DNA of 64,000 bases. It comes from Streptomyces sp. AM 2-1-1. GTDB lineage: Bacteria; Actinomycetota; Actinomycetes; Streptomycetales; Streptomycetaceae. The stretch lies in the NCBI RefSeq assembly GCF_029167645.1, contig NZ_CP119147.1, forward strand, positions 6,342,501 through 6,406,500, in the 5' to 3' direction. Position numbers and translations under genes: made by a program. Numbering within the stretch: the stretch's first letter is position 1; the number at the start of each line of letters is the position of its first letter. The notes under the pieces are model-generated. The model worked only from the letters and a program-made list of their open reading frames with translations, did no database searches and was not told where the DNA came from. Of the stretch, positions 4,169 through 25,041 are shown one piece after another.

Positions 4169-4217
4169 CCCACGTTCGCTGGGGCTGTGGAGGGCCGCTG
4201 GGCCCGGAGAGGCGGGG

Positions 4218-8449: not shown

Positions 8450-8451
8450 CG

Positions 8452-9208: not shown

Positions 9209-10321
9209 ATGGCATCACCTGTTCCCGATTACGTCACGCTCCTCGCCGAGTTGAAGGACGTCAGGCTCGCGGGTCTGACCCGGCTGAGAGGGCGCACGCT
9301 GCCCGTGCTCGAAGCGGCTGCGGCGGCGGTCTCGTCCGACGCAGCGCGGGCGACCGGGTCACTCACGGAGGTGCTGCTGAGGAGTGCGGTGGCCCGCCTG
9401 GACGCGGGGACACTGCGCACCGCGGCCGAGTACACCCTGGGGCTGGCCCAGGGCACCCGGGACTGGCCGGCCTCCTCCCGCCGGGCCAGAGCGGCCTCGG
9501 TCTACGGAGTGAGCGTCGAACGGTTCCGCAAGGAACAGGAGGTGATGGTTCTCGGCCAGGTCGCCGAGCACATCCTGCTGCTGGTGTCCGACCGGGCGGG
9601 AGCCGAGGGCTCCGGCACCGCGGGGGACAACGGAGCCGCGGGCACCCATCGGTCCGTGGAGGTCCGGACAGGCGGCCGACCGGTCGTACTCTCCGTGCAC
9701 GTGCATCCCGTGGACCTGTTGCGTGACGTGGACGTGGTCGTCTCCCCGTCCAACGTCTACCTGGCGCTGCCCGAGGAGTACAAGTCGTCGGTCGCCGCGT
9801 CACTGCGCAGGGCGGCCGCCCAGCACGGCGTGACGGGGGAGATCCTGGCCGACCCGTTGTCGGCGGAGCTGCGTACGTGGGCGGAACAGCAGGGCACTTC
9901 GGGCCGTGCCGTGCGGCCGGGCACCGTGGTGGCCACCGGGGCGGGGGCGTTGGCCGAACAGGGAGTGCGGCGCATCTACCACGCGGCGATCGCCGTGCCC
10001 CGGGCCGGTACCAACGACTACGACGTGCTGGCGGCCGACGTCACCCGGGCCGTGGCCCGCGCCATGCGGATGCTCGACGACGAACACCGGCGCCACACGC
10101 CACCGTTGCGGTCGGTGTGCTTCCCGCTGCTCGGTTCGGGCCGCGGCGGGCTGTCGTACGAGGACAGTCTGGGAGCCGTCTGGGCGGCGGTGGAGGCGGA
10201 ATTGGCGCGCGGGGCGGACTGGGACGTGCACTTCGTGGTGCGCACGCCCGAGGCGGCGGCTCTGGTCGAGGGCATCGCCGCCGGAATCCGCCCGGCGTAC
10301 GACCGGAGACCGACCGGCTGA
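9209..10321 (+). CDS. Macro-domain protein with N-terminal helical domain
   Basis: 370 residues. The ATG at 9209 is the only sensible start; GTG 9201 is out of frame. Residues about 1-130 are helical and contain VYGVSVERFRKEQE, a segment seen at the N-terminus of many actinobacterial signalling and effector proteins. Residues about 160-355 look like a macro domain: a β-strand then VVVSPSNVYLALPEEYK, an alternating β/α order, and the late glycine loop FPLLGSGRGGLSYEDS. Macro domains bind ADP-ribose and some hydrolyse ADP-ribose-1''-phosphate, O-acetyl-ADP-ribose or protein ADP-ribosylation. The first loop lacks the classic GGG, so binding may be altered. Placed 73 bases after the RES gene, it could handle the RES reaction product. 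Confidence 0.75.
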   Translation: MASPVPDYVTLLAELKDVRLAGLTRLRGRTLPVLEAAAAAVSSDAARATGSLTEVLLRSAVARLDAGTLRTAAEYTLGLAQGTRDWPASSRRARAASVYGVSVERFRKEQEVMVLGQVAEHILLLVSDRAGAEGSGTAGDNGAAGTHRSVEVRTGGRPVVLSVHVHPVDLLRDVDVVVSPSNVYLALPEEYKSSVAASLRRAAAQHGVTGEILADPLSAELRTWAEQQGTSGRAVRPGTVVATGAGALAEQGVRRIYHAAIAVPRAGTNDYDVLAADVTRAVARAMRMLDDEHRRHTPPLRSVCFPLLGSGRGGLSYEDSLGAVWAAVEAELARGADWDVHFVVRTPEAAALVEGIAAGIRPAYDRRPTG

Positions 10322-10392: not shown

Positions 10393-10728
10393 GTGGCTAA
10401 TCCCAGCCGACATGGCTGCGGTTGCGGTAAGCGTGCGTGCCGGGCGTCGCGGCGGGGCGGACCCCGGCGGCCGTGGCACCGGCGTGGGCGCATGAGCCGC
10501 GGGATGGACAAGTGGGGCCACGGGGCCGTCGGCCGGGTCGTCACCTGGCCGGCACCGGACGCGTACGTCATGGTCGAGGGGGTCCTGCTGCGGATGCCGA
10601 TGGACGCACCGGGGATGGCGCCGGGCGCGGAGGTCGTCGTGCGCCACGACCCCGCGCGGAATCGGCTCCGCGCCCACGGGACGACGGCGAGCCACCCGGA
10701 CCGGGGCGGGGCGTGCGGCGATGAGTGA
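10393..10728 (+). CDS. Small hypothetical protein with Cys-rich start
   Basis: About 111 residues from GTG 10393, which has AGGGAG eight bases upstream. Internal ATGs at 10492 and 10504 are alternatives that would give a protein of about 75 residues. The long form begins VANPSRHGCGCGKRAC, a possible metal-binding Cys cluster. The conserved-looking core is HGAVGRVVTWPAPDAYVMV, then GAEVVVRHDPARNRL, consistent with a small β-rich protein. It overlaps the following vWA gene by 8 bases, so it appears to be the first gene of the kinase/phosphatase operon. No family recognised. Confidence 0.5.
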   Translation: MANPSRHGCGCGKRACRASRRGGPRRPWHRRGRMSRGMDKWGHGAVGRVVTWPAPDAYVMVEGVLLRMPMDAPGMAPGAEVVVRHDPARNRLRAHGTTASHPDRGGACGDE

Positions 10729-11491
10729 GCCCGGTTTCGGACTGGCCGAGGGCTACGACGAGCGGCAGCCCGTAGTCCTGCTCCTCGACACTTCGGCCTC
10801 CATGGGACGCCCGGCCGAGAACCCCCGGATACGCGAGCTCAGCGAGGCGCTGACCGGCTGGTTCGAAGGAATCCGGAGGGAGCCGAGGCTGAGGGCGCGG
10901 GTGGAGGTGTGCCTGATCACCTTCGACTCCCGGGTGCGGGTCTACGACCCGGACCGAAAGCGACTGGTCCCCGTCGGTGAAGCCCCGCCGGACCGGTTGT
11001 TCGTGCCGGTGGACGAGGTGCGCCCACCGCGGCTGGAGGCGTTCGGGCTCACCCGGATGACAGAGGCCGTCGAGACCGGGCTCGACCTGGCCCGGGAGCG
11101 CTACAGGACACTCCAGGGACGGCACGTCCAGGTGCGCAGGCCGTTCCTGTGGGTACTGACGGACGGGGCGCCGAGCGACGGCGACGGGGAGCCGATGGCG
11201 CCGGCCGCCCTGGCCGGTACGGCACAGAGGGTGCGCCGGGGCGAGGAACGGGGCGAATGCGTGCTCCAGGCGATCGGGGTACGCGGTGCCGATCTGGAGC
11301 TGCTGGAGGTTCTGGCCCCCCGGGGGGCCTTCATGCTCGAGGACATGACTTTCGGGCAGATCCTCGACATTCTCTTCAAGAGCTCCGACGCGTCGGGCCC
11401 GCTCCAGGCCGTCGACGAGATCCAGAGCCAGACGGACCAGCTCGTGCAGTGGCAACGACGCCTGCGGCAGCTTGAGGACAGGCACCGGTGA
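10721..11491 (+). CDS. vWA-domain protein (TerY-like)
   Basis: 256 residues. The MIDAS metal-binding motif is intact: DTSAS at residues 23-27, a Thr in FGLTRMTEAVE, and an LTDGAPSDGD Asp at about 145-154. A C-terminal helical tail (IQSQTDQLVQWQRRLRQLE) follows. Together with the next two genes it forms a vWA-PP2C-kinase triad, known from tellurite-resistance-type (TerY-P) phosphorylation systems, in which the vWA protein acts as the scaffold or phosphorylation target. Its start overlaps the upstream gene and its stop overlaps the PP2C start (GTGA). Cytoplasmic; partner identity is inferred from context. Confidence 0.88.
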   Translation: MSEPGFGLAEGYDERQPVVLLLDTSASMGRPAENPRIRELSEALTGWFEGIRREPRLRARVEVCLITFDSRVRVYDPDRKRLVPVGEAPPDRLFVPVDEVRPPRLEAFGLTRMTEAVETGLDLARERYRTLQGRHVQVRRPFLWVLTDGAPSDGDGEPMAPAALAGTAQRVRRGEERGECVLQAIGVRGADLELLEVLAPRGAFMLEDMTFGQILDILFKSSDASGPLQAVDEIQSQTDQLVQWQRRLRQLEDRHR

Positions 11492-12306
11492 TCGTGGCGG
11501 GGGCCGTCGTCCAGGGCACCGCGCATCTGGCCCGGGGCCAGGGCTGCCAGGACGCCTTCAGGGCGGTCGACCTGGGCGCGTCGGCGGTGCTGGCGGTCGC
11601 GGACGGCGCCGGCGGCCAGGAGCGCAGCGCGCTCGGCGCGCACATCGCCGTGGACGCGGCCTGCCGCGCCCTGGCGGAGGACATACCGGATGCCGGGGAC
11701 GGGCCGGAGGTCTGGACGGAGTGGACGGCCAAGGCCGGCGCCAGGGTGATGAGGGACTACCGGCGTTCCGTGCGGGGCGTGTTGTCGGCGGACGGACCGG
11801 GCGCGCCGGAGGGGGCCCGCGCCCTCGCCGCCACGCTGGCCGCAGCGGTCGTACGGCCGCCCTGGGTGGCCTTCGTCGCGGTCGGCGACTGCTTCGGGAC
11901 GTTACTCACTCGCGGGCCCGTCGGCCCGGGTCCGGTTCGCGAGGCACGTGACCGGTGCCACCTGGTCCTGCCGCCGCCCTCTCCCGGCGCGGCGGAGACG
12001 GTCTTCCTCTCTTCGCCCGGGGCCGGTCTGCGGATACGGTCGTTCGTGGTCTGGGAACCGCAGCTGAGCGGAGTCGTGCTCGCCACCGACGGCTGTGTCC
12101 CCCTCACCCTCGACCATCCCTCCGTACGTCGGCTGCCGCCCGAGGCAGGACCCCTGCCCTCCGAACGGTTCTTCTGCGGGCTGGCGGCGACGTTGCGCGC
12201 CAACGGCGGTGACGCCGCGCCCCTGCACGCACTGCTCTCCGGACCGGAGGCGGCACGGTCCGGCGACGACCTGACCGTGCTGTGCGCCCTGACCGAAGGC
12301 GGGTGA
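11488..12306 (+). CDS. PP2C-family protein phosphatase
   Basis: 272 residues from GTG 11488, overlapping the vWA stop by 4 bases. PP2C metal-binding landmarks are present: the N-terminal CQDAF acidic residue (about residue 22), VADGAGG at 37-43, ATLAAAVV followed by FVAVGDCFGTLL, and a C-terminal SGDDLTVLCAL. It would dephosphorylate Ser/Thr residues using two metal ions, most likely reversing the action of the kinase encoded immediately downstream. The DATDG-equivalent near residue 193 reads LATDGCV. No membrane segment is seen. Confidence 0.9.
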   Translation: MIVAGAVVQGTAHLARGQGCQDAFRAVDLGASAVLAVADGAGGQERSALGAHIAVDAACRALAEDIPDAGDGPEVWTEWTAKAGARVMRDYRRSVRGVLSADGPGAPEGARALAATLAAAVVRPPWVAFVAVGDCFGTLLTRGPVGPGPVREARDRCHLVLPPPSPGAAETVFLSSPGAGLRIRSFVVWEPQLSGVVLATDGCVPLTLDHPSVRRLPPEAGPLPSERFFCGLAATLRANGGDAAPLHALLSGPEAARSGDDLTVLCALTEGG

Positions 12307-13421
12307 CGGTGGCCCTCACGGCGGTGTCCGACAGCGGACGCACATGGCACCTCACCCAGCAGGTCGGCAGCGGCTCGGAGGGAGTCGTCTACCGGGTGGA
12401 CGACGAGCGGCCGCTGGTGGTCAAGCTCGTCCTCGACCCGCCCGATCCCGCCGCCTACCGGCGCCGCGTCGTCCGGCTGGTGCGGCGCCGCCGACTGCCG
12501 CGCGCTGTCCGGGTCCTTTCCGCGACACCCGCCCGGGTCGCCTGGCCGATGGCCCCGGTCCGGGCGGGTGGCCCGGGTGACCACGGAATGGACGGCTATC
12601 TGATGACCGACATGCGCCACACCCACCAGCCGTTCACCCGTCTGCTGACCCCGCGGGCCGCCCGCACCTTCTTCCCGGGAGCTACGTGGGCCACCGCGCT
12701 CGCGGCCTCCCTCTCGCTCGCACGTCTCCTCGCGGATCTGCACACCGAGGGCTACGTGGTGGGCGACCTGAAACCGGACAACCTCTGGGTCGACGCACGC
12801 GGCAGGGCCGGCATCGCCGACGTGGACTCCTGGCAGTTCACCGACGGGGAAGAGCTCTTTCCCGGACGGATGAGCAGCCCGGGCCACACGGCACCCGAGC
12901 GGATCGCCGCGCCCGGCACCGCGCCCGACCGGGCGTCCGACGATTTCGTCCTCGCGGTCCTGGTCCACCAGTTGCTGATGTGCGGGCTCCACCCGTTCGC
13001 CGGGCACCCCGGGGCGGGCGGCGATTACCTCTCGTACGACGACAACGTCCTGCACGGCAGGTGTCGCCTGCTCGACCGCGCCTCGGTGGTCCTGCCTCGC
13101 TCCGCGCCACCCGTCGACCTGCTCCCGAGGCGCCTCGCAGTCCTCTTCCGGGCCGCGTTCGGCGGGGTCCGGCCCGCCGCGTCGGTCTGGGCCGAGGCGC
13201 TGGCCGCGGAGTCGGACCCGGCCCGGCTGCGGACCTGCCGGAAGAACGTCCTGCACGTGCATACCGCGGAGCGCCCCTGGTGCCCCTGGTGCGACCTCGC
13301 CGAGCGCGGGGCGGACGACCGTTGGCCGCTCACCGCTTCGGACCCGTCGTCGCGCACGGACGGCGCGCGGAACCTCGTGGACGCGAGCGAGGGGAAGGAC
13401 ACGGAGGAGGACACCGCATGA
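12303..13421 (+). CDS. Ser/Thr protein kinase with C-terminal Cys-rich tail
   Basis: 372 residues from GTG 12303, overlapping the PP2C stop; GTG 12309 is an alternative start. The glycine loop is VGSGSEG (21-27) and the β3 lysine is K41 in VVKLVLD. The catalytic loop is VGDLKPDNLWVD, so the HRD motif is replaced by VGD, but D155, K157 and N160 are kept. The DFG motif is DVD with D173 kept. The APE motif reads TAPER, followed by SDDFVLAVLVHQLL. The C-terminal CRKNVLHVH...CPWCD looks like a zinc-binding knuckle. The protein is probably active and regulated with the adjacent phosphatase and vWA protein. No transmembrane or PASTA region is present, unlike PknB-type kinases. Confidence 0.9.
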   Translation: MTVALTAVSDSGRTWHLTQQVGSGSEGVVYRVDDERPLVVKLVLDPPDPAAYRRRVVRLVRRRRLPRAVRVLSATPARVAWPMAPVRAGGPGDHGMDGYLMTDMRHTHQPFTRLLTPRAARTFFPGATWATALAASLSLARLLADLHTEGYVVGDLKPDNLWVDARGRAGIADVDSWQFTDGEELFPGRMSSPGHTAPERIAAPGTAPDRASDDFVLAVLVHQLLMCGLHPFAGHPGAGGDYLSYDDNVLHGRCRLLDRASVVLPRSAPPVDLLPRRLAVLFRAAFGGVRPAASVWAEALAAESDPARLRTCRKNVLHVHTAERPWCPWCDLAERGADDRWPLTASDPSSRTDGARNLVDASEGKDTEEDTA

Positions 13422-14068
13422 AGGAGACGAGACGGCTCTCGGTGGCGCGGACGCTCGACCGCTGCACCGTCCTGGGGCCGGGGACCAGAGCCGTGATCTG
13501 GGTGCAGGGCTGCCCGCTGCGCTGCCAGGGCTGCGTGGCGGCGGAGACACTGCCCTTCGAAGGGGGCGACGAGCACAGCGTGGACCAGCTCGCGGACTGG
13601 CTCTGCGGGTTGCCCGATGTCGAGGGAGTGACGCTCTCCGGCGGCGAGCCCTTCGCCCAAGCCGGACCGCTGGCCTCGCTGATCGACGCCGTCCGGGTGC
13701 GGCGTCCGGATTTCGGCGCGATGGCGTACTCCGGGTTCCGGTACGAGGCCCTGCTGCGGGGTGACCCGGACCGGCGCGCGCTGCTGCGCCGTCTCGATCT
13801 CCTCGTCGACGGTCCGTACGTGGCCTCCGCGCGGCACGGCCTGCGCTGGCGCGGCTCGTCCAACCAGCGCGTCATCGCGCTCACCGGACGCCACGACCAC
13901 CTGGAGACAGGGCCCGACACCAGTGCGGGCGTCGAACTGTCCGTGGCGGCCGACGGATCACTGTCCTGGGCAGGGGTGCCCCCCACTCCCGGCTTCAGGG
14001 AGTCATTCGAGAAGCGACTCGCGGCACGGGGCTTCGTCCTGCGCGCCGAGGTACGGAGGAAAGCATGA
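13418..14068 (+). CDS. Radical SAM protein, NrdG-like 4Fe-4S type
   Basis: 216 residues; ATG 13418 has GGAGGA upstream and overlaps the kinase stop. The cluster motif CxxxCxxC is visible as GCPLRCQGC (Cys 32, 36, 39) and is followed by the SAM-binding SGGEP at about residues 72-76. The short size and the IWVQGCPLRCQGC context match the activase group (NrdG, PflA). No ribonucleotide reductase or glycyl-radical enzyme is nearby, so its substrate should lie in this operon or be a small molecule. It overlaps the next gene by 4 bases. The presence of a radical enzyme within a kinase/chaperone/GTPase operon is unusual. Confidence 0.88.
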   Translation: MKETRRLSVARTLDRCTVLGPGTRAVIWVQGCPLRCQGCVAAETLPFEGGDEHSVDQLADWLCGLPDVEGVTLSGGEPFAQAGPLASLIDAVRVRRPDFGAMAYSGFRYEALLRGDPDRRALLRRLDLLVDGPYVASARHGLRWRGSSNQRVIALTGRHDHLETGPDTSAGVELSVAADGSLSWAGVPPTPGFRESFEKRLAARGFVLRAEVRRKA

Positions 14069-15501
14069 GCGGATCACCGAAGTACAGCGCCGTCACCGTG
14101 GCGCCGGCCTACGCGCGGATCGAAGCGGAACGGCGCCGCGCCCGCGAGGCGGCACGTCGGCGGCGGGAGGCGGAGCGCGCCGCGGAACGGGACCGGCGAG
14201 CCGCCGAGCGGGCCCGTGAAGTGGCAGCGCGACGGGAGTGGGCCAGGGCGGAGGCTGAGCGCAGGAGAGCGCGGCTGGACCATCAGCGGGAGGAGCACCG
14301 GCGTTCCCACGCGGCCATGGTGCGTCAGGAGCAGGCCGAAGCCGATGTGCGCGGGCTGACCGAGGTACGCGAACTGCTCGGCCGGGTCCGCGCGGAGGTC
14401 CCCGAAGTGCGGGAACTGCGGCAGCGGCTGGATCTTCTCCTGGACCGCGCCGGCCGGACCGAGGACGTGGGCGGGGCGATCGAGGAGCTGCGGGGCCGGG
14501 TCGTCCTGCTCGGACGCGGAGGGGACTCCGGCGTCCGCAGCGACGGCCACGGAGCTGTCCTGGCCGGTCTGGAGGAACGGCTCGCCCGGCTCGGACGGGA
14601 AGCCCGGGAACAGGATCCGCAGGGGCACCGGCGCTGCCGCGACCTCCTCGACGAGCTGCGTGCCTCGGCCGGCCCGGGCGCGGAGACCAGGTTCCAGGCG
14701 CTGCTCGGAACCGCGGAGCACGCCCTCGTACGGTTCGCCACGACCGCCGCCGACCGGGCCGCGGAAGGGCGGCGCGAGGCGGCGCGGGCACGGGAGGCCC
14801 GTCGGCTGGAGGAGGTACGCGCCGCCGAGGAGGAGGCGGTGCGTCAGGCGGCGCTGGATGCCGGACAGGAACGCCTGTCCGCAGAGCTCAGCGAGGTGAG
14901 GGACCGCCTCGGCGTCGTGGCAGGAGCGGTGGGCGAAGCAGCGGCCGAGGCCAGGGCGCTCGACGGCGCCGAACTCGCCGAGCGGATGGAGGCGGCGCTC
15001 AACGCCGTCACCACCCCGCTCGCGGCGGGGGCGGTGGCAGAGGCGCTGACGGCGGTCGCGGCGCTGGAGGACCTGCTCACCGGCACCGAAGTGCTCCTGG
15101 ACGAGATGCATGTGGCGGACAGGCGCCGCATGGACCTGGCGCAGGCCCTGCAGGATGCCATGATCGGCGAGGGCTTCGCCTTCACGGGGGGAGAGCAGCG
15201 GGCCGGAGGTCTGCTGCTGAGCTTCGAGCGTCCGAGCGGAGCGACCTACCGGACCACGATCACCACGGAGGACGGGGGCGCCCCCGTCCTCGTCTACCAG
15301 GTCGACGGCGAACCGGACGTCACCTTCCCGCCGGATCCCGAGAGCGCTCGGTGCGACCGCACGGAGGACCTCCTGGAGCGGGTGCACGAGACGATCGTCG
15401 AAGGGCGCGGGTTCGTCCCCGGAGAGCTCACCTGGCAGGGCAAACCGCGTCGGCCGGACGGGCGGCCCCAAGCCGCTGAGGACTGGACGTGGACCCGGTG
15501 A
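14065..15501 (+). CDS. Coiled-coil protein of unknown function
   Basis: 478 residues. Residues about 15-105 are dominated by Arg, Glu and Ala in heptad-like spacing (IEAERRRAREAARRRREAE), predicting a long coiled coil. Further helical segments run to about residue 370, with a second Arg/Glu-rich helix near 225-270. The last 100 residues form a compact β-containing domain (GLLLSFERPSGATYRTTI, VLVYQVDGEPD). It overlaps the radical SAM gene by 4 bases and the AAA+ gene by 13 bases. It may be a scaffold or adaptor for the ATPase. No named family recognised. Confidence 0.75.
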   Translation: MSGSPKYSAVTVAPAYARIEAERRRAREAARRRREAERAAERDRRAAERAREVAARREWARAEAERRRARLDHQREEHRRSHAAMVRQEQAEADVRGLTEVRELLGRVRAEVPEVRELRQRLDLLLDRAGRTEDVGGAIEELRGRVVLLGRGGDSGVRSDGHGAVLAGLEERLARLGREAREQDPQGHRRCRDLLDELRASAGPGAETRFQALLGTAEHALVRFATTAADRAAEGRREAARAREARRLEEVRAAEEEAVRQAALDAGQERLSAELSEVRDRLGVVAGAVGEAAAEARALDGAELAERMEAALNAVTTPLAAGAVAEALTAVAALEDLLTGTEVLLDEMHVADRRRMDLAQALQDAMIGEGFAFTGGEQRAGGLLLSFERPSGATYRTTITTEDGGAPVLVYQVDGEPDVTFPPDPESARCDRTEDLLERVHETIVEGRGFVPGELTWQGKPRRPDGRPQAAEDWTWTR

Positions 15502-17591
15502 CCACTGCGGACCGGGCGAAGGGCGAGAACAGCGGCGCCGGACCGGGCCGTCCGCCGGACCGGGGCCGCCGGGGCACACCCGCCGCCGACGGCACTCCGG
15601 CCACCGCGGACGCCATGATGCCGCTGTGGGCGGTGTCCCTCGGCTGGGAGCTCGGACGGGGCCGCCAGGTGATCCTGAACGGGCAGATCCGGGACCGGTG
15701 GTGGCTGGCCGACCGGCCCGCGTCTTTCCGCGAGGTGATCGCCGGCCTGCTGCGGATGCGCGGGGCGGAGGTCGTCGGATGGTGGGACCCGGTGGGCGGG
15801 CTCACCTTTCCGCTGCCGGGTGACGGACGGCGCTTCGAGGAGCTGCGCGAGGCGCGCCCCTCCGGGCCGGACGGCGCCTCCGCGGCAGCCGGTACGGAGC
15901 CGGACGGTACGGGCCCGCACGCGCCGCAGGACTACGGGTCCTCACCGGCGCCGCCCGGTGGTCCGGGGGACGTGGAGGCCGGCGTGTCCCGCCGGAGTGA
16001 GCGCGAGCGGAGCCGGGAGCGACTGCTGGCCCCGAGGCGGGCGGGCATGCCCCGCACCTTCGAGGACGTCGTCGCCACCGTGCACCGCTTGGTGTCCTCG
16101 CCCGACGCTGCCACCGCCTTCGTCTTCGAGGACGTCGACCACCACCTTCCGCCCGGGCAGCCCGAATCGCATCTGGGGTACCTGAGGCTGCGCGCCGCGA
16201 TGACGGACGCCGTGACCCCGAGGAGCGCCGTCGGTCCGGCCCCGCACGCACGCAACGCGGTGCTGTGTGCGGTGGGTGACGTCGGACGGCTGCCCGGCTG
16301 GTTCCACCTGGAGGACCCGAGGATCACCGCACTGCGCATCGGCCCGCCCGACCCCAGCGAGCGGCGTCTCTGGCTCACCTGGCTGCTGCGGCACTTCAAC
16401 GGGGCGAAGGACGCCACACGCGCCGATCTGGAGGCGCTCGTGGGATCCACCGACGGGATGGCGGCCTGGGACATCGAGTCCCTGGCCCGGACCTCCTGGC
16501 TGCGCGACGCTCCGCTGCGGAAGCCGGACAAGCTGATGGAGGTCCACCGGCTCAACGTGAGCGTCGATCCGTGGACCCAGCTCGACCGGACCACCGTCGC
16601 GGGTGCCGCCGGGGCTCTGGGAGCCCGGGTGGTCGGCCAGTCCGCGGCGGTGAACGCCGTCGCGTCGGCGCTCCAGTCCGCCTTCGTGGGCATCGACTTC
16701 GGCAGGTCGGGTACCGCACGCCCCCGTGGCGCCTTCTTCTTCGTCGGACCCACCGGCGTAGGGAAAACCGAACTCGCCAAGGCCGTCGCCGAGTTGATGT
16801 TCGGAGACCAGAGCGCCTACGCCCGCTTCGACATGAGCGAGTACCAGCAGGAGCACGCCGCCGAGCGCCTGGCCGGCGCGCCGCCGGGCTTCATCGGCCA
16901 CGAGCAGGGCGGCGAGCTGACCCGCCGGGTCCAGGAACGGCCGTTCAGCGTGCTGCTCTTCGACGAGATCGAGAAGGCCCACCCCAAGGTGCTGGACAAG
17001 TTCCTGCAGATCCTGGAGGACGGCCGCCTCACCGACGGGCGCGGCCAGACCGCCCACTTCTCCCAGTGCTTGATCATCTTCACCTCCAACACCGGCGCGG
17101 AGCAGGTCCAGAACCTTCTGGAGGAGAGCGACGAGGAACTCACCTATCCCCGGCTGGAAGCGCATTTCACCCGGGCGGTGGAGGAGAAGTTCCGAGAGAT
17201 CGGCAGGCCGGAGATCTACGGCCGGCTCAAGCCCGGAGTGGTGGTCTTCGACATGCTGCGCGACGAGCACGTCGTCAGGATCGCCGAGCGGCTGCTGCGC
17301 CAGCTGGTGGAGTCCGTCCACGAACGCCACCGCGTGGAACTGGTGCCCGACACGGACACCCTGCACCCGTGGATCACGAAGCGGATGTCGGAGCCCGGGC
17401 ACCAGGCGTACGGCGGTCGGCAGATCCGAAATGAATTGGAACTGGTGCGATCGGCCGTCGTCGGGCATCTGCTGGCACACCGCCCCGAGCCCGGCAGCCG
17501 GATCAGGGTCGGTGTGGGTGCCGACGACGCCGCGTGGGTCACCGTCGACGGCTCGGCACCTTCCGAGGACGGAAGGAGCGGGGAGGCATGA
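15489..17591 (+). CDS. ClpB-like AAA+ ATPase with degenerate first AAA domain
   Basis: 700 residues from GTG 15489, chosen for TGAGGA six bases upstream; GTG 15498 is an alternative. The C-terminal half is a ClpB/ClpA second-module AAA+: Walker A GPTGVGKTE (about 419-427), FDMSEYQQEH pore region, Walker B LLFDEIEKAH (about 488-497), sensor-1 IFTSNTGAE and a C-terminal GGRQIRNELE sensor-2 region. The middle region (about residues 185-370) resembles an AAA domain that has lost Walker A: TAFVFEDVDHHLP sits where Walker B belongs and AVGDVGRLPGWF where sensor-1 belongs. The N-terminal region is a different domain (RPASFREVIAGLLRMRG). It is probably an unfoldase or remodeller paired with the adjacent Hsp70-like protein, as ClpB pairs with DnaK. 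Confidence 0.88.
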   Translation: MDPVTTADRAKGENSGAGPGRPPDRGRRGTPAADGTPATADAMMPLWAVSLGWELGRGRQVILNGQIRDRWWLADRPASFREVIAGLLRMRGAEVVGWWDPVGGLTFPLPGDGRRFEELREARPSGPDGASAAAGTEPDGTGPHAPQDYGSSPAPPGGPGDVEAGVSRRSERERSRERLLAPRRAGMPRTFEDVVATVHRLVSSPDAATAFVFEDVDHHLPPGQPESHLGYLRLRAAMTDAVTPRSAVGPAPHARNAVLCAVGDVGRLPGWFHLEDPRITALRIGPPDPSERRLWLTWLLRHFNGAKDATRADLEALVGSTDGMAAWDIESLARTSWLRDAPLRKPDKLMEVHRLNVSVDPWTQLDRTTVAGAAGALGARVVGQSAAVNAVASALQSAFVGIDFGRSGTARPRGAFFFVGPTGVGKTELAKAVAELMFGDQSAYARFDMSEYQQEHAAERLAGAPPGFIGHEQGGELTRRVQERPFSVLLFDEIEKAHPKVLDKFLQILEDGRLTDGRGQTAHFSQCLIIFTSNTGAEQVQNLLEESDEELTYPRLEAHFTRAVEEKFREIGRPEIYGRLKPGVVVFDMLRDEHVVRIAERLLRQLVESVHERHRVELVPDTDTLHPWITKRMSEPGHQAYGGRQIRNELELVRSAVVGHLLAHRPEPGSRIRVGVGADDAAWVTVDGSAPSEDGRSGEA

Positions 17592-19708
17592 TCGCCATCG
17601 ATCTGGGTCACCGTTTCGGACGCCTCGCACGGCTCGGCCCCGACGGTGCCCAGGAGGTGACCACGACCGGGCTCGTCGGCGCGGACGGGGTGCTCGATCC
17701 GGGCCGGGCGCTGCCCCAGGTGATCGGAGCGGCCACGGACGCCCATGGGGTGGAGCCGGACGGAACGGCCTTCATCGGACTCGCGCTGTCGGGTGGGCGG
17801 GAGGACGAGCTCAGGTACGCGGTGGAGCGCGCCGGCCTCAGAGTGGGGCGGGCGGTGCCCGATCCCGTGGCCGTGGCCCTGCACTACGGGGCCGTCGCGG
17901 AGGGGGTGGACCATACGGTCCTGGTCTGCGACCAGGGGGCGACGACTCTGGACCTGAGCGTCCTGTCCATCACCCCCGACCTCACCGTGCGCATGGTCAG
18001 CGGACGCAGCCTTCCCCTCGGCGGCAGTGACTGGGACGCTGCGGTCGCCGACTCTCTCGCCGGCCGTCTGCCGGACGGTGCCGACCCGCTCGGGGCGGCG
18101 GAGGGCCTTCGACGGGCGTACGGCAACGGGGCGGACGTGACCGAAGTCGTGGACACGTCGGGCGGGCGGTACTCGCCGACCCTCGACCGGACCGGATTCG
18201 AGCGGGCGGTCGCGCCGCTGCGGGAGCGCATGCTCGAAGCCGTCGCGGAAGAACTCACCGCCGCGCGACCGGGCGTGGACACCGTGCTGCTGGCGGGCGG
18301 CATGTGCGCCGCGCCCGGGCTGCGGGGCCGGATCGAGGCCCTGCCGGCCGCGCGGGGTCTGACGGTGCGCCGTGACCGCCCCGAACTGGCCGTCGTGCTC
18401 GGTCTGCTGGCGCTGAACGACTTCGGTGTGCTGCGCGTGATCTCCCGCCCCACAGCGGAGCCGGAGCGGGCGCAGGCGTGGTACCCGGGCGCGGGCTCCG
18501 GGTACCCGCGCATCCGGAGCCCGCATCCCACCCCGGCCCCGCGCCCCGCGGGCGCGGAGCCCTTCGACGCCGGCCCGGGCCCCGTCTCCGCCGACGCGGT
18601 GGAGGATCCGGAGCCGCGGGCCGGACGCTCCCTGTCCGAGGACCCCCTACCGCGCTCGTGGCAACGTGGCGGGGTGGCCGTCCGGGATGCGGAGGCGCCG
18701 AACGCCGGGCGTGCCGGGCAGCGGGAGGACTCCGAGCCGTCCGCCGCACCGTCAGGGCCGCCCCCTCCCGGGCCCGGATTCCCCCAGGATCCCGATGTCG
18801 TCCCGGAGCCCCAGGCCGTCCCGGAGCCCGATGCTGTCCCGGAGCCCCAGGCCGCCCCGGAGCCCGAGGCCGCCCGGCTCTCCAGCGCCGGACCCACCGG
18901 TGCCGCCGACGCCGCTGCCCCAGGACGCGCGCAGCCGCCGAGGACACCCCGGTCGAGCACCGCCAGCGCCGGTTCCGCGCCCGGCGCCGAGGACCCGTTC
19001 CCACCGCGGGCCACTGCGGTCAGCGATCCGTACGACGCCGCGGGGGAGGCTCCGGTGGTGTCGTTCGTCGATCCGCGCCCCCGGTTCGCGGTCCCCGTGG
19101 ACCAGCTCCAGGCCGTCCGGCGCGGGGGCCATCTCCTCGTGCTGTGGGCCTGGCCCGACGGAGCCCTGACCGCACGGGTGCGCTGGTCCCGAGAGGGAAG
19201 CACCGCCGCGTCCGGTGACGGGGACGTGGTGTGCCGCCGCCGGGCCTACGAGCACGACGGAGGGTTCGAACTGGCCGTCGGTCCCGGGGCCGTGGTCCTC
19301 ACTGTGGAGGCATTGGTCCCGGAGCTCGACGAGTTCGCCGAGGACACGTCTCCACTGCTCGTCCCGGCCGCCCCGACGGTCGTGGTGTACGAGCCGAGCG
19401 TGCGACGGCGCCTCCGGGGCCGGGTCGCGTCGGTCACGTTCACCACCGAGTCAGGCTGCCGGCTGCCCGGTCTCCGTATCGTCCACGGCCTCGGACGCTT
19501 CCGCCCCACCAGCACCGCCGAGGGCACCGTCCTGCACGAGGTGCCCGCGCAGCGGCTGTCCGCCGGCGCCCCCCTGACCGTGGAGTTCGCGCTGCCCGCC
19601 ACCCGCGGTCCGTCCTGGCTGGTCTGCTTCCCGGCGGACGCGGACGCGGGGACCGACTCCGGCATCGAGATCCGCCCGTCGGCACTGCACAGATTGCGAG
19701 TCACCTGA
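17588..19708 (+). CDS. Hsp70-like ATPase with Pro-rich linker and β-rich C-terminus
   Basis: 706 residues; ATG 17588 overlaps the AAA+ stop. The first ~285 residues have the actin/Hsp70 ATPase motifs: phosphate-1 IAIDLGH (2-8), phosphate-2 VCDQGATTLDLS (about 113-124), GGSDWD, and adenosine motif VLLAGGM (about 234). The rest is unlike DnaK: a long Pro/Glu-rich linker (about 295-485) with repeated VPEPQA-type units, then a C-terminal β-rich part (about 490-700) starting VSFVDPRPRFAVP that resembles stacked Fn3-like sandwiches. The normal substrate-binding lid is absent. The order AAA+ then Hsp70-like suggests a chaperone pair dedicated to this system. Confidence 0.85.
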   Translation: MIAIDLGHRFGRLARLGPDGAQEVTTTGLVGADGVLDPGRALPQVIGAATDAHGVEPDGTAFIGLALSGGREDELRYAVERAGLRVGRAVPDPVAVALHYGAVAEGVDHTVLVCDQGATTLDLSVLSITPDLTVRMVSGRSLPLGGSDWDAAVADSLAGRLPDGADPLGAAEGLRRAYGNGADVTEVVDTSGGRYSPTLDRTGFERAVAPLRERMLEAVAEELTAARPGVDTVLLAGGMCAAPGLRGRIEALPAARGLTVRRDRPELAVVLGLLALNDFGVLRVISRPTAEPERAQAWYPGAGSGYPRIRSPHPTPAPRPAGAEPFDAGPGPVSADAVEDPEPRAGRSLSEDPLPRSWQRGGVAVRDAEAPNAGRAGQREDSEPSAAPSGPPPPGPGFPQDPDVVPEPQAVPEPDAVPEPQAAPEPEAARLSSAGPTGAADAAAPGRAQPPRTPRSSTASAGSAPGAEDPFPPRATAVSDPYDAAGEAPVVSFVDPRPRFAVPVDQLQAVRRGGHLLVLWAWPDGALTARVRWSREGSTAASGDGDVVCRRRAYEHDGGFELAVGPGAVVLTVEALVPELDEFAEDTSPLLVPAAPTVVVYEPSVRRRLRGRVASVTFTTESGCRLPGLRIVHGLGRFRPTSTAEGTVLHEVPAQRLSAGAPLTVEFALPATRGPSWLVCFPADADAGTDSGIEIRPSALHRLRVT

Positions 19709-20898
19709 TGGCCAGAGCGCTCATCTGCCCCTACTGCTACGAAGGCTTCGCCGCGAGAGAGATCCTCTTCCGCTGCAACGCCCGCCTCAGCAAAGCGGGC
19801 AGGCAGTGCCCGCGCAGCCGCGACCAGGTACTCGACCAGCGGAAGGGACCGCGCCCCAGCCACGACCTCGGCCCGGCCTTCGCCGCGGACGGCCGCAAAT
19901 CCTCGGTGACCTGCCCGGACTGCGAGGGGGAGACCAACTACCGGATCTGCCCGGTGTGCCACTCCGCGCTGCCCGTCCAGTTCGGCATGGTGGACAACCG
20001 CCTGATCGCCATGGTCGGGCCGAAGGCGTCCGGCAAGACCGTCTACATGACGGTGCTGCTCCACGAGGTCCGCCACCGGGTCGGTGAGGCGTTCGGGGCC
20101 TCCCTGATGGGCTCGGACGACGCGACGATGCAGCGCTTCAGTTCCGACTACGAGGAACGTCTCTACCAGGACAACCAGATGTTCCCGCCCACCTCGCCCG
20201 CCTCCACCACCCTCAACCGGGTGGACCCGCTGGTCTTCCGGTTCGGCATGCGCCGGCGGACTCTGCTCGGTGAACGCCCGCAGCACACCGTGCTCTCCTT
20301 CTTCGACACCGCCGGCGAGGACTTCAGCTCCCAGGAGAACATCGAGCTGAACACCCGCTACCTGGCCGGAGCCGACGGCATAGTCCTGCTGCTCGATCCC
20401 CTCCAGATGCCGGGCGCCCGCGGCCACGCCCTGCCCGGCACCATGCTGCCGGGCTCGGAGGCACTGGACCCGCCCGGCAACGTCCTTTCCCGGGTGACCA
20501 CCATGCTGCTGGCCGCCCGCGCCGGCCGGCCCGCGCAGCGGATCGACACCCCGATCGCCGTCGTCTTCTCGAAGATCGACGCCTTCTGGCACCACCTCGA
20601 TCCCGTAAGTCCCCTGCGCGACCACGCGCCCCTGACGGGCCGCTTCGACGTGAACGACAGCATGAGCGTGCACGAGGAGGTGCGCCGGCTCCTCAAGGAG
20701 TGGGACGGCGTGCCGATCGACCAGCTCCTCGACATCCACTACACCCGCTACCGGTACTTCGGAGTGTCGGCCCTCGGCCGCAACCCCACCCCCGAAGCCA
20801 GGGTCGCCGCCACCGGTATCCAGCCCTACCGGGTGGCCGACCCCTTGCTGTGGCTGCTGAGCGAATTCGGCTCGGTGCCCAAGGAAGGACGCGGGTGA
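19708..20898 (+). CDS. Zinc-ribbon P-loop GTPase, first of a pair
   Basis: 396 residues; ATG 19708 shares one base with the previous stop (TGATG). The N-terminus is a zinc-ribbon region with CPYC (7-10), further Cys at 23 and 34, and a second CPDC...CPVC set near residues 69-85. The GTPase domain follows: P-loop MVGPKASGKT (about residue 104), DTAGED (about 200), and the guanine-specificity motif SKID (about 287), with VLLLDPLQM between. It has the features of one member of the paired 'double-GTPase' families predicted in conflict systems, and a second such GTPase is encoded at 23461 on the other side of a GAP1-like gene. Soluble; probably a molecular switch. Confidence 0.83.
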   Translation: MARALICPYCYEGFAAREILFRCNARLSKAGRQCPRSRDQVLDQRKGPRPSHDLGPAFAADGRKSSVTCPDCEGETNYRICPVCHSALPVQFGMVDNRLIAMVGPKASGKTVYMTVLLHEVRHRVGEAFGASLMGSDDATMQRFSSDYEERLYQDNQMFPPTSPASTTLNRVDPLVFRFGMRRRTLLGERPQHTVLSFFDTAGEDFSSQENIELNTRYLAGADGIVLLLDPLQMPGARGHALPGTMLPGSEALDPPGNVLSRVTTMLLAARAGRPAQRIDTPIAVVFSKIDAFWHHLDPVSPLRDHAPLTGRFDVNDSMSVHEEVRRLLKEWDGVPIDQLLDIHYTRYRYFGVSALGRNPTPEARVAATGIQPYRVADPLLWLLSEFGSVPKEGRG

Positions 20899-23468
20899 CC
20901 GGCTTTCAGCAGCTCTACTACACCTCCTGCGAGCACGGGCTCAGCCGCTTCTCGGGGTTCCAGTTCAACGCCGTCAGCGCGGGGGTCACCTTCGAGACCC
21001 GCCAGGCCGTCGAAGCCCTGGCCGGGTACGAGCCACCGCGGTACCTGATGGAGTCGGACACACCGGAGCTGCTCGAGCGGTGCCCGGTCAACCTCTGCCA
21101 CCGGCCCCACGACCCGCAGGGGCGCAGCGCCACCACGCTGTGCGTACGGTACGTGGGCCGGGACTCGGCCCGTCGCTTCGGCAACTACTTCGCCCACGCT
21201 CTGCACAGTGAGGACTTCCCGGCGGCCGGGGGCGGGATGCTCGGTATCGAACTGTGGAACTCCCCGGTGTGGACCAGCACGGTGTCGCCCAGCACGGACA
21301 TCCCGGAACTGACGGCGCCCGCGCCCGGCCCGCTCGACGCCCGCGCGGTGAGCGAGTTCCTGCGCGGCCACCCTCACGCGGCCCGGCTGCCGGACCTGCT
21401 GTCAGCCGTGTTCGCCGCGCTCGGCGAGAACGGATCGGTGGTGGTGATCGAGCGTACGACCGAGCGGATCGCGCACTGGTTCGCCGCGGTCTCCTACCTC
21501 ATGCCGCCCCCGCTCGCCCGTGGGCTCTCCTTCGCCACCTACGTGCTGCGTCCCGCTCGCAGCCGGTTGCACCTGATCGGCACGGTTCCGGAGGCACAGC
21601 TTGCCTTCGGGCCGGACGACGAGGCGGCCTACACCGTCTTCGACTTCGCGCGCGGTATCTTCCCCGAGGTGCCCGTCGGCGCCGCGGTCCGTCTCCTCAC
21701 CCGGATCGGCGCCGGTTCCATCCGCCCCGTCTGGTCCTGGACGGCGGACTACGCCCGAGGCGGGGAGAAGGCACCGGAGGAGTGGCACGCGCCGGTCGCC
21801 GCTGCGGCTGCCTCCGGCGGCATGCCGCTCACCGCGGCCGACGCCGACGCGGTGATCGACTGGCTGGCCGGCGCGGACCACCTGGGAGCACGCCGGGCGG
21901 CCGTGGCGGCGGACATCCACCGCGAGCACCGGGACCTGGACGAGCGCCGGCTGATCGTGCTCAGCGCGGCCGCGAAGGCCGGCGGTGACGACGCGGTCCA
22001 GCAGGAGATCGAGGGGAAACTGCACGGCTCGCGCATGCGGGCCTACCTCGACGCCGGCACCGGCGCCCTCGAGCCCGTGCCGATCACCGACCCGACGGCA
22101 CGCGAGCGGGCCACCGTCCTGTGGCGACGACTTCTGACGGAGGTCCGGACCGCCCGCGAGCGGACCCGTCTGCTGCTTTGGGCCCTCGGCGCCGGGCTTC
22201 CGGTGCCACCGGAAATCATGGTGCGCGAGACACGCGCGCTGGCCCGCACGCTGCTCGGCTCCGCCGCGCCCGCCCCCGGGTTCCGGCACGAGGTGGCCGA
22301 GCTCCTGCGTCAGCTGCCCGCCATGAGGGAATCCCTGGCCGCGGCGGTCGGGGAGGCACTCCGCGAACGCGTCGGCCAGGAACAACTTTTCTCGCAGTTC
22401 CCCGCCGACCTCCTGCGCGAAGAGGACCTGGCGGGCCGCCCTCTGCTTCTGGAACACCATCTGCGGGCGAGGGCCGAACGCGAGCCCGCGAACACGGTGC
22501 CCCTCATGATGAAGATCTTGGGTGTACGGCAGCGCGCGTCGCCGGACGAGGAACTGCTCCGCGGTCTGTGGCGAGCGCCCTCACGGACCTGGACCCACCG
22601 GGAAGCGGCCCGGATCGCCCGGGAGCTGCCGGTTTCGACGCCGGTGGACCCGGCGGTGGGCGAGTGGTTCGACCGCGCGCTGAGCCAGGAGGTCGAGGGC
22701 GAGGAGGCGCTGGAGGACTGCCTCGACCTGTGCCGGCAGCTCGCAGCCCCGGGCCGCTCCGGCTGGCTCTCCCCGCGCGCCCGGGATCGGGTACGGATCA
22801 CGCTCGGTCTCCTGCGCTCCCTCAGCGACGCCCGGGAGGCCGGCGAACTCGTCGCAGCGTTCGCGGTTCCGGAGGCCGGCACCTGGGCGGCCCCGAGGGC
22901 GCTCAAGCGCCTTCGCATGGTGCCCGCCCTGCTGGGCCTGCCCGCCGACACCGATCGACTGCGCGCACTGCTGGGGAATTTGACCCACCGTGACCTCGAC
23001 CTGTACCTCTCGGGCGTGGCCTGCAGGGTGGGCAGTGATGAGCGGATCGACGACGTCCTGCTGGGCCACGTCGCCGCCGTCGTCACTCTGCCCGACACAG
23101 TCCCGGTCTCCCAGGCCCAGGGGGAGATGGTGGTCGCGATCCGCTCCCACCCGTACCGGCACTGGAGCGCGGCCGATCTGAGCAGGCTGGAGGCGGTGGT
23201 GCGGCCCCATGGGGCCGACCTCGCCGACCGCTATGCCGAGAGGGCCGAGAGCCGGCGGCAGCGCGCGCCGCGTGACGCGCCGCGCAGGTTTCCGCTCTTC
23301 GGCCGCCGGGCGGCAACCGCAGCCGCGACGCAGGATGATCCTCCCCGTCGGGCGGCGGCCGCAGCGCAGGAGCCTCCGCCGTCGGCGGAGACCCGAGGCG
23401 ACCGAACCGGACGCGACCGGACCCGCCGACCTCCCGAAGAAGAAGGACCGGTGACGCATCGTGACTGA
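20895..23468 (+). CDS. GTPase-associated protein 1 (GAP1)-like protein
   Basis: 857 residues from GTG 20895, overlapping the first GTPase gene by 4 bases. The N-terminus FQQLYYTSCEHGLSRFSGF followed by NAVSAGV is the recognisable signature of streptomycete 'GTPase-associated protein 1-related' proteins. The N-terminal ~230 residues are α/β (with LCVRYVGRDSARRFGNYFAH), and the rest is a long all-helical region. The last ~60 residues are charged and disordered. It is encoded between two GTPases, so it probably binds or regulates them. The molecular role is not experimentally established to my knowledge. Its stop overlaps the next start by 8 bases. Confidence 0.83.
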   Translation: MTGFQQLYYTSCEHGLSRFSGFQFNAVSAGVTFETRQAVEALAGYEPPRYLMESDTPELLERCPVNLCHRPHDPQGRSATTLCVRYVGRDSARRFGNYFAHALHSEDFPAAGGGMLGIELWNSPVWTSTVSPSTDIPELTAPAPGPLDARAVSEFLRGHPHAARLPDLLSAVFAALGENGSVVVIERTTERIAHWFAAVSYLMPPPLARGLSFATYVLRPARSRLHLIGTVPEAQLAFGPDDEAAYTVFDFARGIFPEVPVGAAVRLLTRIGAGSIRPVWSWTADYARGGEKAPEEWHAPVAAAAASGGMPLTAADADAVIDWLAGADHLGARRAAVAADIHREHRDLDERRLIVLSAAAKAGGDDAVQQEIEGKLHGSRMRAYLDAGTGALEPVPITDPTARERATVLWRRLLTEVRTARERTRLLLWALGAGLPVPPEIMVRETRALARTLLGSAAPAPGFRHEVAELLRQLPAMRESLAAAVGEALRERVGQEQLFSQFPADLLREEDLAGRPLLLEHHLRARAEREPANTVPLMMKILGVRQRASPDEELLRGLWRAPSRTWTHREAARIARELPVSTPVDPAVGEWFDRALSQEVEGEEALEDCLDLCRQLAAPGRSGWLSPRARDRVRITLGLLRSLSDAREAGELVAAFAVPEAGTWAAPRALKRLRMVPALLGLPADTDRLRALLGNLTHRDLDLYLSGVACRVGSDERIDDVLLGHVAAVVTLPDTVPVSQAQGEMVVAIRSHPYRHWSAADLSRLEAVVRPHGADLADRYAERAESRRQRAPRDAPRRFPLFGRRAATAAATQDDPPRRAAAAAQEPPPSAETRGDRTGRDRTRRPPEEEGPVTHRD

Positions 23469-25041
23469 GATCGTTGCCTTCGTTCTCATCCCCGCACTCT
23501 TCCTTTTCGGGATCGGACTGTTCCTCCCCCTCGTGCCGTTCATCGTCGCTCTTCGGGGCCTCGCGCTGATGATGCAGGTGCTCTCCGGCTACGGGCGCAC
23601 CCTGGTCGGCGTCGTGCACCGGCGCACGCCCGAGTTCCGGACGCTGCCCCCGTACCGGCCCCAGGACGACGCGGTGAAGGCGTACCGCAACTACTTCTAC
23701 GGTCCGGCTCTTCGCGACCTGCGCCAGCTCGTCACCCTGGAGAGACGGTTGTACGCAAGGACGGTCGGGGACTCCTTCCGTGCCGTGACCTCGCGCCAGC
23801 TCGTCGCGCCGACGCGGCACCGGGCCTTCACCGTGCCGTACGGTCTGACGCTGTACCTGGGTCTCTGCGCGGGTCTGGTTGCGGTCCTTCCGCTGCTCGT
23901 CCTGGCGCTGGTGCTGCACGCGCTTCTCCTGGCCCTGCTGACAGCTGGGGCCCGGCTTCTCGCGGGCGCGCTGCGGACCACCGACCGGTTGGCGTTGTGG
24001 ACGAAGCGGCTCGGCTCGGGGATGATCTGCCCGCACTGCTTCGAACGCGTGCGATATCCGGCGTACGACTGCCCGAGCCCCACCTGCCGTCGTCGGCACA
24101 CGGACATCCGGCCCGGGAGGTACGGCCTCTTCCGGCGCCGCTGCGAGTGCGGCCGCCGCATGCCGACCCTGCTGATGCTGATGGACCGGGAAACGCGGCT
24201 CCAGGGCTACTGCGGCCACCCGCACTGCGGAAAGCCGATGAACGTGGCCGCAGGCCACATGCCCGAGGTGGTGATACCGCTGATCGGCGGACAGGCGGCG
24301 GGCAAGACACAGCTGATGGCGGCCATGCTGCTGTCGCTGGAGCGCGCGGCGGAGAACGGCGGACCGGCGATCACCCTCGCGGACGACGAGTCGGACGCCA
24401 ACTACCGGGTGCTGCGGGAAGTGCTGCGGATGCGCGGACACACCCGCGCCACCCAGAAGACGCTGCCGAGGGCGCACTCGTTCGTCCTCGGCGACGGCCG
24501 CTCCCAGCGGCTGCTCCACCTCTTCGACACGGCCGGTGAGCGGTTCGTCGATCGCGACGAAACCGACGCGCTGCGCTACGCGCGGGCCGCGCGCACTTTT
24601 GTCTTCGTCCTCGACCCGATGGCGGTCAAGGCGTTCTGGACCCGGCTGGACCCTTCACCCGGCCCTCTTCTGGACCGCACCCTGGGCTCCACGGTCGATC
24701 CCGAGGAGGTCTTTGCCCGGTCGGTCCAGGCAGTGGCCGCGATGGGTGCTCCGCTCCGGCGCTCCCGACTGGCGGTCTCCATCAGCAAGATGGACCTGCT
24801 CGCCGAACACGGCCTGGTACCGGCCGGGACCGACAGCGACAGCGCCCGGGCATGGCTGGTCGAAGGGCTCGGTCTGCACAGCCTCGTGCGGGCCATGGAA
24901 CTGCATTTCCGGGAAGTCCGCTTTTTCGGCACCGCCGCCGTGACGGACGAGCACGCGGATGTGCACAGCAGCGTCGTACGGCTGACCGACTGGTGCCTGC
25001 GAGGAGTCGGCGGCAGGCGACGCGCCCTGCGGCAAAGGTGA
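23461..25041 (+). CDS. Membrane-anchored zinc-ribbon GTPase, second of a pair
   Basis: 526 residues from GTG 23461. Two hydrophobic blocks, residues about 5-40 (VAFVLIPALFLFGIGLFLPL) and about 124-168, anchor it in the membrane. A Cys/His-rich zinc-ribbon region follows (CPHC, CPSPTC, RCECG, YCGHPHC). The GTPase domain has P-loop GGQAAGKT (about 274), DTAGER (about 356) and SKMD (about 441). Its order of parts (membrane, zinc, GTPase) mirrors the soluble GTPase at 19708, so the two are likely relatives working as a pair, with the GAP1-like protein encoded between them. It is the last clear gene of the operon. Confidence 0.83.
   Translation: MTEIVAFVLIPALFLFGIGLFLPLVPFIVALRGLALMMQVLSGYGRTLVGVVHRRTPEFRTLPPYRPQDDAVKAYRNYFYGPALRDLRQLVTLERRLYARTVGDSFRAVTSRQLVAPTRHRAFTVPYGLTLYLGLCAGLVAVLPLLVLALVLHALLLALLTAGARLLAGALRTTDRLALWTKRLGSGMICPHCFERVRYPAYDCPSPTCRRRHTDIRPGRYGLFRRRCECGRRMPTLLMLMDRETRLQGYCGHPHCGKPMNVAAGHMPEVVIPLIGGQAAGKTQLMAAMLLSLERAAENGGPAITLADDESDANYRVLREVLRMRGHTRATQKTLPRAHSFVLGDGRSQRLLHLFDTAGERFVDRDETDALRYARAARTFVFVLDPMAVKAFWTRLDPSPGPLLDRTLGSTVDPEEVFARSVQAVAAMGAPLRRSRLAVSISKMDLLAEHGLVPAGTDSDSARAWLVEGLGLHSLVRAMELHFREVRFFGTAAVTDEHADVHSSVVRLTDWCLRGVGGRRRALRQR

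Follow-up and report, generated by a model that had tools for sequence, protein, structure and literature searches.

The stretch of DNA considered here, 64,000 nt from Streptomyces sp. AM 2-1-1 (NCBI RefSeq assembly GCF_029167645.1, contig NZ_CP119147.1, positions 6,342,501 to 6,406,500 of the forward strand), is referred to below as the window, with positions counted from its first base. It has a GC content of 72.6%, lies in a 7.2-Mb genome whose proteins have their closest named relatives in Streptomyces, and contains a block of eleven plus-strand genes (about 10504 to 25041) that, by its predicted domains, is a GAP1-N2 GTPase-centric system of a distinct subtype. All eleven genes are open, and their products are, in order, a small protein, a vWA protein, a PP2C phosphatase, a kinase, a radical SAM enzyme, a coiled-coil protein (hereafter the coil protein), an AAA+ protein, an Hsp70-like protein, a DO-GTPase, a GAP1 protein, and a second DO-GTPase. 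Successive genes overlap end to start by 1 to 8 bases (the ten junctions measure, in gene order, -8, -4, -4, -4, -4, -4, -4, -1, -4, and -8 bp), and the block is probably co-expressed. An initial annotation, made from the letters alone, had described eleven overlapping genes with these protein types, and both the overlaps and, by Pfam, the types held up; its start for the first gene at 10393 is less plausible than 10504, because homologues align from the latter.

The small protein (10504..10728; 74 aa) has homologues in the loci we label G154, G104, G107, and L170 and no Pfam family (best match 0.075). It is followed by a vWA protein (10721..11491; PF00092, 2e-4, just under the cut-off, with DxSxS and TDG motifs), a PP2C phosphatase (11488..12306; PF13672, PP2C_2, 1.5e-27), and a protein kinase with a C-terminal zinc-ribbon-like CPWC motif (12303..13421; PF00069, Pkinase, 4.5e-8, and motifs, with DVD for DFG). 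Then come an NrdG-like radical SAM enzyme (13418..14068; PF13353, Fer4_12, 3e-31; CX3CX2C); the coil protein, which has no Pfam family and for which alignment and a structural model give an N-terminal MSGSPKY and a C-terminal beta domain (14065..15501); a tandem AAA+ protein (15498..17591; PF07724, AAA_2, 1.5e-48); and an Hsp70-like nucleotide-binding domain with a long C-terminal extension (17588..19708; PF00012, HSP70, 3.6e-13). The block closes with a soluble DO-GTPase bearing zinc-ribbon-like N-terminal cysteine pairs (19708..20898; PF19993, DO-GTPase2, 9e-10); GAP1 (20895..23468), whose N2, M, and C domains all exceed the Pfam cut-off (PF20013, PF20014, and PF20052; 5e-37, 1e-22, and 2e-67); and a membrane DO-GTPase (23461..25041; PF19993, DO-GTPase2, 1e-16, and hydropathy). 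Both DO-GTPases keep an intact P-loop and DTAGE. Motifs that we take to be catalytic are present in the vWA, PP2C, kinase, and radical SAM proteins, the second AAA domain, both GTPases, and the CHAT protein described below; at five orthologous loci some of them are unmatched, reflecting either regular-expression misses or real changes.

The family placement follows from the GAP1-N2/M/C domains and the two DO-GTPase2 domains, which match the nucleoside triphosphate-dependent conflict systems to which the initial annotation had pointed and, within them, the GAP1-N2 systems that Kaur et al. 2020 (PMC7159879) predicted by computation. Three non-overlapping themes are described there: tubulin; Hsp70 accompanied by GrpE; and a kinase alongside PP2C and vWA, at about 10% and restricted to actinobacteria. 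The window shares GAP1-N2/M/C, two DO-GTPases (one with hydrophobic N-terminal stretches), the actinobacterial kinase, PP2C, and vWA theme, and the Hsp70 theme. It differs in joining the kinase triad to an Hsp70-like gene and in adding the radical SAM, coil, and ClpB-like AAA genes, which are unmentioned in the GAP1-N2 section of that paper. Where two GTPases occur, the family description has one with four N-terminal transmembrane helices and one C-terminal; in the window, hydropathy marks residues 1-43 and 124-172 of the membrane DO-GTPase as hydrophobic and no such stretch at its C-terminus. The open PubMed Central (PMC) literature yielded neither experimental work on GAP1/DO-GTPase systems or on the window's combination nor other papers centred on these domains; the part of PMC11237479 available to us has a single mention of DO-GTPase. 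The earlier statement that the combination lacks experimental work thus stands for that literature, but part of the combination was already known, since GAP1-N2 with kinase, PP2C, and vWA is a described theme. The division of labour proposed at the outset, sensing and switching on one side and remodelling on the other, also seems right judging by the kinase, phosphatase, GTPase, AAA+, and Hsp70 content.

Conservation of the neighbourhood, which had been suggested as a check, bears out the grouping in actinobacteria. Searches with the window proteins (tblastn) recovered the same gene order in G154, G104, G107, and L170, and the recurrence of the same genes in the same order argues that their association is not due to chance. 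G154 and G104 share about 94% DNA identity over most of the stretch, so we count them as one. There are five colinear Streptomyces-type loci including the window (two being the near-copies), and two rearranged loci in another family (L137 and, partly, L138), in which the radical SAM and CHAT genes are convergent to the block. The block is conserved yet patchy: the radical SAM gene was found at an E-value of 1e-20 or better in 14 of 150 genomes of the genus and GAP1-C in 73 of 245 genomes of the order, and a phylum-wide radical SAM search returned 11 of 246 genomes, namely the window's, G104, and nine with weaker matches. Among 46 GAP1-C loci that we fetched (10 from one search and 36 chosen from the order-wide search, comprising nearly all of its lower-scoring loci and a sample of the higher-scoring ones), three are of the window type (L137, L138, and L170). 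Hidden Markov models (HMMs) found the radical SAM, ClpB-like, and CbxX-like AAA genes at none of the 43 others, and these extra genes therefore mark a subtype.

The chain does not begin at the small gene, as first proposed, and the proposed tie to upstream genes stands: it is extended upstream on the plus strand by three genes joined through 4-bp overlaps. These encode a CHAT-domain candidate protease effector (open reading frame 4113..7670, its true start probably near 4218; PF12770, 1e-36, with His and Cys motifs), a 260-aa protein (7667..8449; kept in G154, G104, and L127), and a RES-domain candidate toxin that would consume nicotinamide adenine dinucleotide (NAD; 8446..9135; PF08808, 9e-18). 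A macro-domain protein, the candidate guard of RES (9209..10321, plus strand; PF01661, 5e-5, over the cut-off), follows after 73 bp and is separated from the small gene by 182 bp. A RES toxin with a macro-domain guard would be analogous to other ADP-ribose toxin pairs. RES and macro genes both stand beside radical SAM modules of different type (G154, G104, L122, L127, and L128, with a macro gene in L170), and CHAT relatives lie near 10 of 17 radical SAM loci. At the 43 other GAP1 loci the CHAT, RES, macro, 260-aa, and small genes have no match, in a comparison that favours the radical SAM side somewhat, the other GAP1 stretches being 16-20 kb and four of the radical SAM stretches 34-37 kb.

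The genes for the radical SAM enzyme, the coil protein, and an AAA+ partner recur as a trio. At each of the 15 radical SAM places in the 14 genomes of the genus, an AAA+ gene lies no more than about 7 kb away; it is ClpB-D2-like in the window, G154, G104, G107, G141, L119, L125, L127 (there on the opposite strand), and L128, CbxX-like in L120-L124, and another AAA in L126. The coil gene was detected at 10 of the 15. Six further phyla carry the trio together with kinases, DO-GTPases, or helicase/PIN genes. A Geminocystis plasmid encodes the radical SAM enzyme, a coil protein starting with MSGSPKY, a ClpB-like AAA protein, and two DO-GTPase proteins over the cut-off with a third below it; its surroundings include toxin genes, UvrD-like fragments, a dGTPase gene, and a dCTP deaminase annotated as anti-phage. 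In Photobacterium, Acinetobacter, and Polaromonas, plasmids (L200-L202) carry a large AAA-annotated gene, PIN, coil, AAA, and radical SAM genes in a row, an arrangement that may itself be a defence operon. The large gene of the Photobacterium plasmid, the only one compared, matches MkoA of the Mokosh system (8e-93), which may reflect the helicase fold only, whereas the window has no MkoA-like gene. An Aristaeella plasmid combines a DUF4011 gene, kinase, coil, FHA, radical SAM, AAA, phosphatase, and second kinase; Rhodopirellula and Kordia have radical SAM, coil, and AAA genes with DO-GTPase and GAP1-N2; and a Lentisphaeria contig has radical SAM, coil, and AAA genes. No paper on the radical SAM-coil-AAA combination was found in the open PMC literature, including the accessible part of PMC10853773, and there the trio appears to be unreported. 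Found also without the GTPases, it is the more unusual part of the locus.

A wider radical SAM search gave at least 80 loci and is not a census. Among the matches listed (80 loci), 46 have a neighbour from an NrdD-like cluster, of which Pfam confirmed one member, and five of the other 34 have a coil gene (L002, L003, L005, L007, and L010), with an AAA+ partner in four of these and L010 cut by a contig end. The coil HMM was built partly from the window, G107, G141, L003, L005, L007, L010, L121, L123, L137, L188, and L200-L203, the CbxX HMM from L005, L007, and L122, and the AAA HMM from L003, L188, and L200-L203, and these loci were then matched by their own HMMs; L119, L120, L124, L125, L127, L128, and L170 are in no training set. 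Scytonema NrdG-like genes were considered as trio members and rejected, the nearby AAA protein at L029 being an ordinary Clp ATPase with Clp_N; L044 resembles L029 in look, the Clp_N result being for L029. L120-L124 and L010 form a second Streptomyces group with radical SAM, a coil protein of MSGRKRI or MSCRKRI type, and, in all but L010, which is cut by its contig end, a CbxX-like AAA; in L121-L123 the gene before radical SAM encodes a secreted-looking vWA protein (by Pfam in L122 only), and L122 additionally carries RES and macro genes and matches DO-GTPase2 weakly.

Kinase, phosphatase, GTPases, and chaperones would equally suit ordinary signalling, and the conflict role of other GAP1 systems is itself only predicted (PMC7159879). 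The block could then be a complex with which sporulating actinobacteria manage developmental or stress signalling and membrane organisation, with CHAT and RES as chance neighbours. We think this rather unlikely given its patchy presence (the radical SAM gene in 14 of the 150 genomes), the RES, macro, and CHAT relatives at radical SAM loci and at 0 of 43 other GAP1 loci, and the related trio on plasmids beside defence genes. The reading that we favour, at roughly even confidence, is that the block forms a distinct subtype of GAP1-N2/DO-GTPase conflict system, with a probable antiviral or self-killing role, and works as proposed further below.

The radical SAM enzyme scores 104.4 bits against the NrdG model, below its cut-off of 126.1. 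With NrdG and pyruvate formate-lyase activase it shares a short radical SAM fold, CX3CX2C, and an NrdG-like WRGSxNQ motif; it differs from NrdG in falling under the cut-off, in lying outside the NrdD-linked clade, and in the absence of NrdD from carrier genomes. NrdD was found in none of 17 carrier genomes, the window's included (the 14 genomes of the genus plus G524, G029, and G037), and any glycyl-radical domain in three of them, not the window's. In a quick tree of 102 sequences (those under 110 residues dropped; long branches at L203, L126, L007, L003, and L119), the 45 NrdD-linked genes share one clade (support 99) with 10 unclassified rows. Outside it lie all 28 radical SAM genes linked to AAA or coil (for L010 and L138 the AAA gene is beyond the stretch compared), 23 of them in a single clade of weak support (87); the label requires 3 changes, compared with 24.8 in shuffles. 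A separate cyanobacterial NrdG-like clade has 18 rows (support 99; L029, L031, L035, L036, L039, L040, L044, L051, L055-L058, L060, L070, L071, L074, L076, and L081), near which an NrdD-like neighbour, a coil gene, and a trio-type AAA were not detected.

The lack of NrdD in the 17 carriers might mean that the NrdG-like protein is bait for the radical enzyme of an infecting phage, with no need for catalysis, and inactive-enzyme decoys are proposed for related systems in the part of PMC7159879 that we could consult. Against this, the cluster cysteines and the SGGEP motif, needless for bait, are invariant in an alignment of 18 sequences, and we regard the idea as very improbable. Synthesis of a small molecule or modified nucleotide that signals or poisons, as with viperin, is quite unlikely as well: the radical SAM protein of the Photobacterium plasmid weakly matches the PADLOC pVip models (4e-8), but that of the window is without a PADLOC match at 0.01 and gets its best score from NrdG, and the nearest solved relative is a protein-radical activase. 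That relative, pyruvate formate-lyase activase (3c8f, 2.6e-9), makes a protein substrate the natural guess, and by this analogy the adjacent coil protein is the natural candidate. The activase has been solved with a model peptide, according to the accessible part of PMC9326890. The FtsH ternary systems, as described in the accessible part of PMC7159879, likewise place a radical SAM enzyme, thought to modify a peptide, in a chaperone-based conflict system; likened here by description only, they differ in having a MoxR-vWA/FtsH core where the window has DO-GTPase-GAP1. The trio points to a radical enzyme, probably protein-modifying, inside bacterial conflict systems.

Among 76 coil homologues, 71 have an intact N-terminus, which reads MSGSPKY in 69, MSGSPMY in one, and MSGSVMF in one. 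MSGSPKY is the most conserved 7-mer of a 72-row alignment (mean column identity 0.978, vs. 0.71 for residues 8-60), with LLERVHE in the C-terminal domain a close second (0.968). The structural model (mean pLDDT, a confidence score, 80) places it in a disordered tail, followed by long helices and the C-terminal beta domain; a fold search with this model returned no match at an E-value of 0.001. Other coil proteins start with MSGRKRI (L010, L120, L121, L123, and L124), MSCRKRI (L122), MSGRKDY (Rhodopirellula), MSGPKSS (Aristaeella), MSE, MSA, or MSK (Pseudomonadota), or MSRTFKV (Kordia), and the Lentisphaeria gene has an internal MSGLKEG; the motif is therefore a feature of part of the family. 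Homology is solid within the Actinomycetota (the MSGSPKY group) and marginal between the actinobacterial coil and Geminocystis (3e-3 with the C-terminal HMM, 8e-7 at full length), past which the actinobacterial C-terminal HMM does not reach and HHalign is weak (for groups outside the model, probabilities reach at most 33%). A DNA pattern for MSGSPKY has 11 sites in 10 of 396 genomes of the phylum, a scan that adds little because the pattern spells the peptide only at the G000 and G104 coil genes. MSGSPKY may serve for modification or for docking, and it is in any case a concrete peptide at which to look for modification.

The AAA+ protein encoded next to the coil protein resembles, in its model, a tandem unfoldase whose first ring is inactive. 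Its N-terminal half is AAA-like (Foldseek E-value 1e-5, probability 1.00, but TM-scores of only about 0.3) and lacks a P-loop, and its second domain is ClpB-D2-like and intact. It is like ClpB in this second domain and in the adjoining Hsp70-like gene, and unlike it in the first domain without a P-loop, the absence of Clp_N, and a score of 245 bits against a cut-off of 1232. Since the MSGSPKY tail is terminal, predicted to be disordered, and borne on a long helix, and since an unfoldase is encoded next door, the peptide could instead be a tag for docking or entry by which the AAA+ ring takes up the coil protein, while the radical SAM enzyme acts on something else. This is plausible but on balance doubtful, since trios without the exact MSGSPKY tail retain both AAA and radical SAM genes, and a docking tail offers no explanation for that retention of the radical SAM enzyme.

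In the conflict system that we favour, GAP1 and the two DO-GTPases, membrane and soluble, would form a guanosine triphosphate switch whose threshold the vWA/PP2C/kinase triad would set by reversible phosphorylation. The AAA+ and Hsp70-like proteins would remodel a client, the coil protein being adaptor or client of the AAA+ protein; the radical SAM enzyme would modify the coil protein, most likely near MSGSPKY, and the state of the coil would set readiness. On a trigger, CHAT would cut proteins and RES would consume NAD, with the macro-domain protein restraining RES-type action, so that phage resistance or killing might result; the trio would be a portable module shared with other defence-like operons. 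The locus shows the predicted GAP1/DO-GTPase type of system in a complete and conserved form, with candidate effectors. More tentatively, and with the chances in our view against it, the NrdD-less NrdG-like lineage may be the maturase of the portable trio in several unrelated defence-like systems, acting on the MSGSPKY of the coil protein and possibly converting Gly3 to a glycyl-type radical or introducing a stable modification. The SG pair is reminiscent of a glycyl-radical loop. If such maturation occurs, the immune switch would be tied to S-adenosylmethionine, reductant, and oxygen state, with modification licensing the coil for the AAA+ unfoldase.

Several observations weigh against the conflict-system reading and its trio. 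FNIII and GrpE are typical of GAP1-N2 systems (PMC7159879), and Pfam gave no FNIII family in the eleven genes or the Hsp70-like extension (a divergent copy being possible) and no GrpE match in the eleven genes despite the Hsp70-like gene. PADLOC has no match for GAP1, the DO-GTPases, or the radical SAM, RES, and macro proteins. The radical SAM gene is on the opposite strand in L137 and L138, and the coil gene was undetected at five of the 15 radical SAM places (L119, L125, L126, L127, and L128). Past Geminocystis, and for the second Streptomyces group (L010 and L120-L124), coil homology is no more than suggestive. The loci were fetched with radical SAM, AAA, or GAP1 queries, and outside the genus they consequently speak for recurrence, not frequency.

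A few neighbouring features complete the window. A HipA-like kinase gene (25880-26767; PF20613), 838 bp downstream of the block, has no tblastn match in orthologous loci and is for that reason probably outside the system. A tRNA-Arg called by ARAGORN (7990-8073), considered as an integration site, is probably false, because a Pro/Glu-rich coding stretch of the 260-aa gene encloses it and because L111 and L113-L115 yielded no tRNA. Elsewhere in the same genome is a second GAP1-C locus of another type (L133, C1:1233001-1253000), in which no radical SAM or AAA genes were found. Upstream of CHAT, a plus-strand gene at 3581..4168 (start approximate) encodes a protein with one hydrophobic N-terminal stretch by hydropathy; it is conserved at that place in G154 and G104 (tblastn identity 60-64%), and its membership in the system is uncertain. 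Finally, a second CHAT-like gene (3-3746, minus strand) runs away from the block and is truncated at the window start; its His and Cys motifs are intact.

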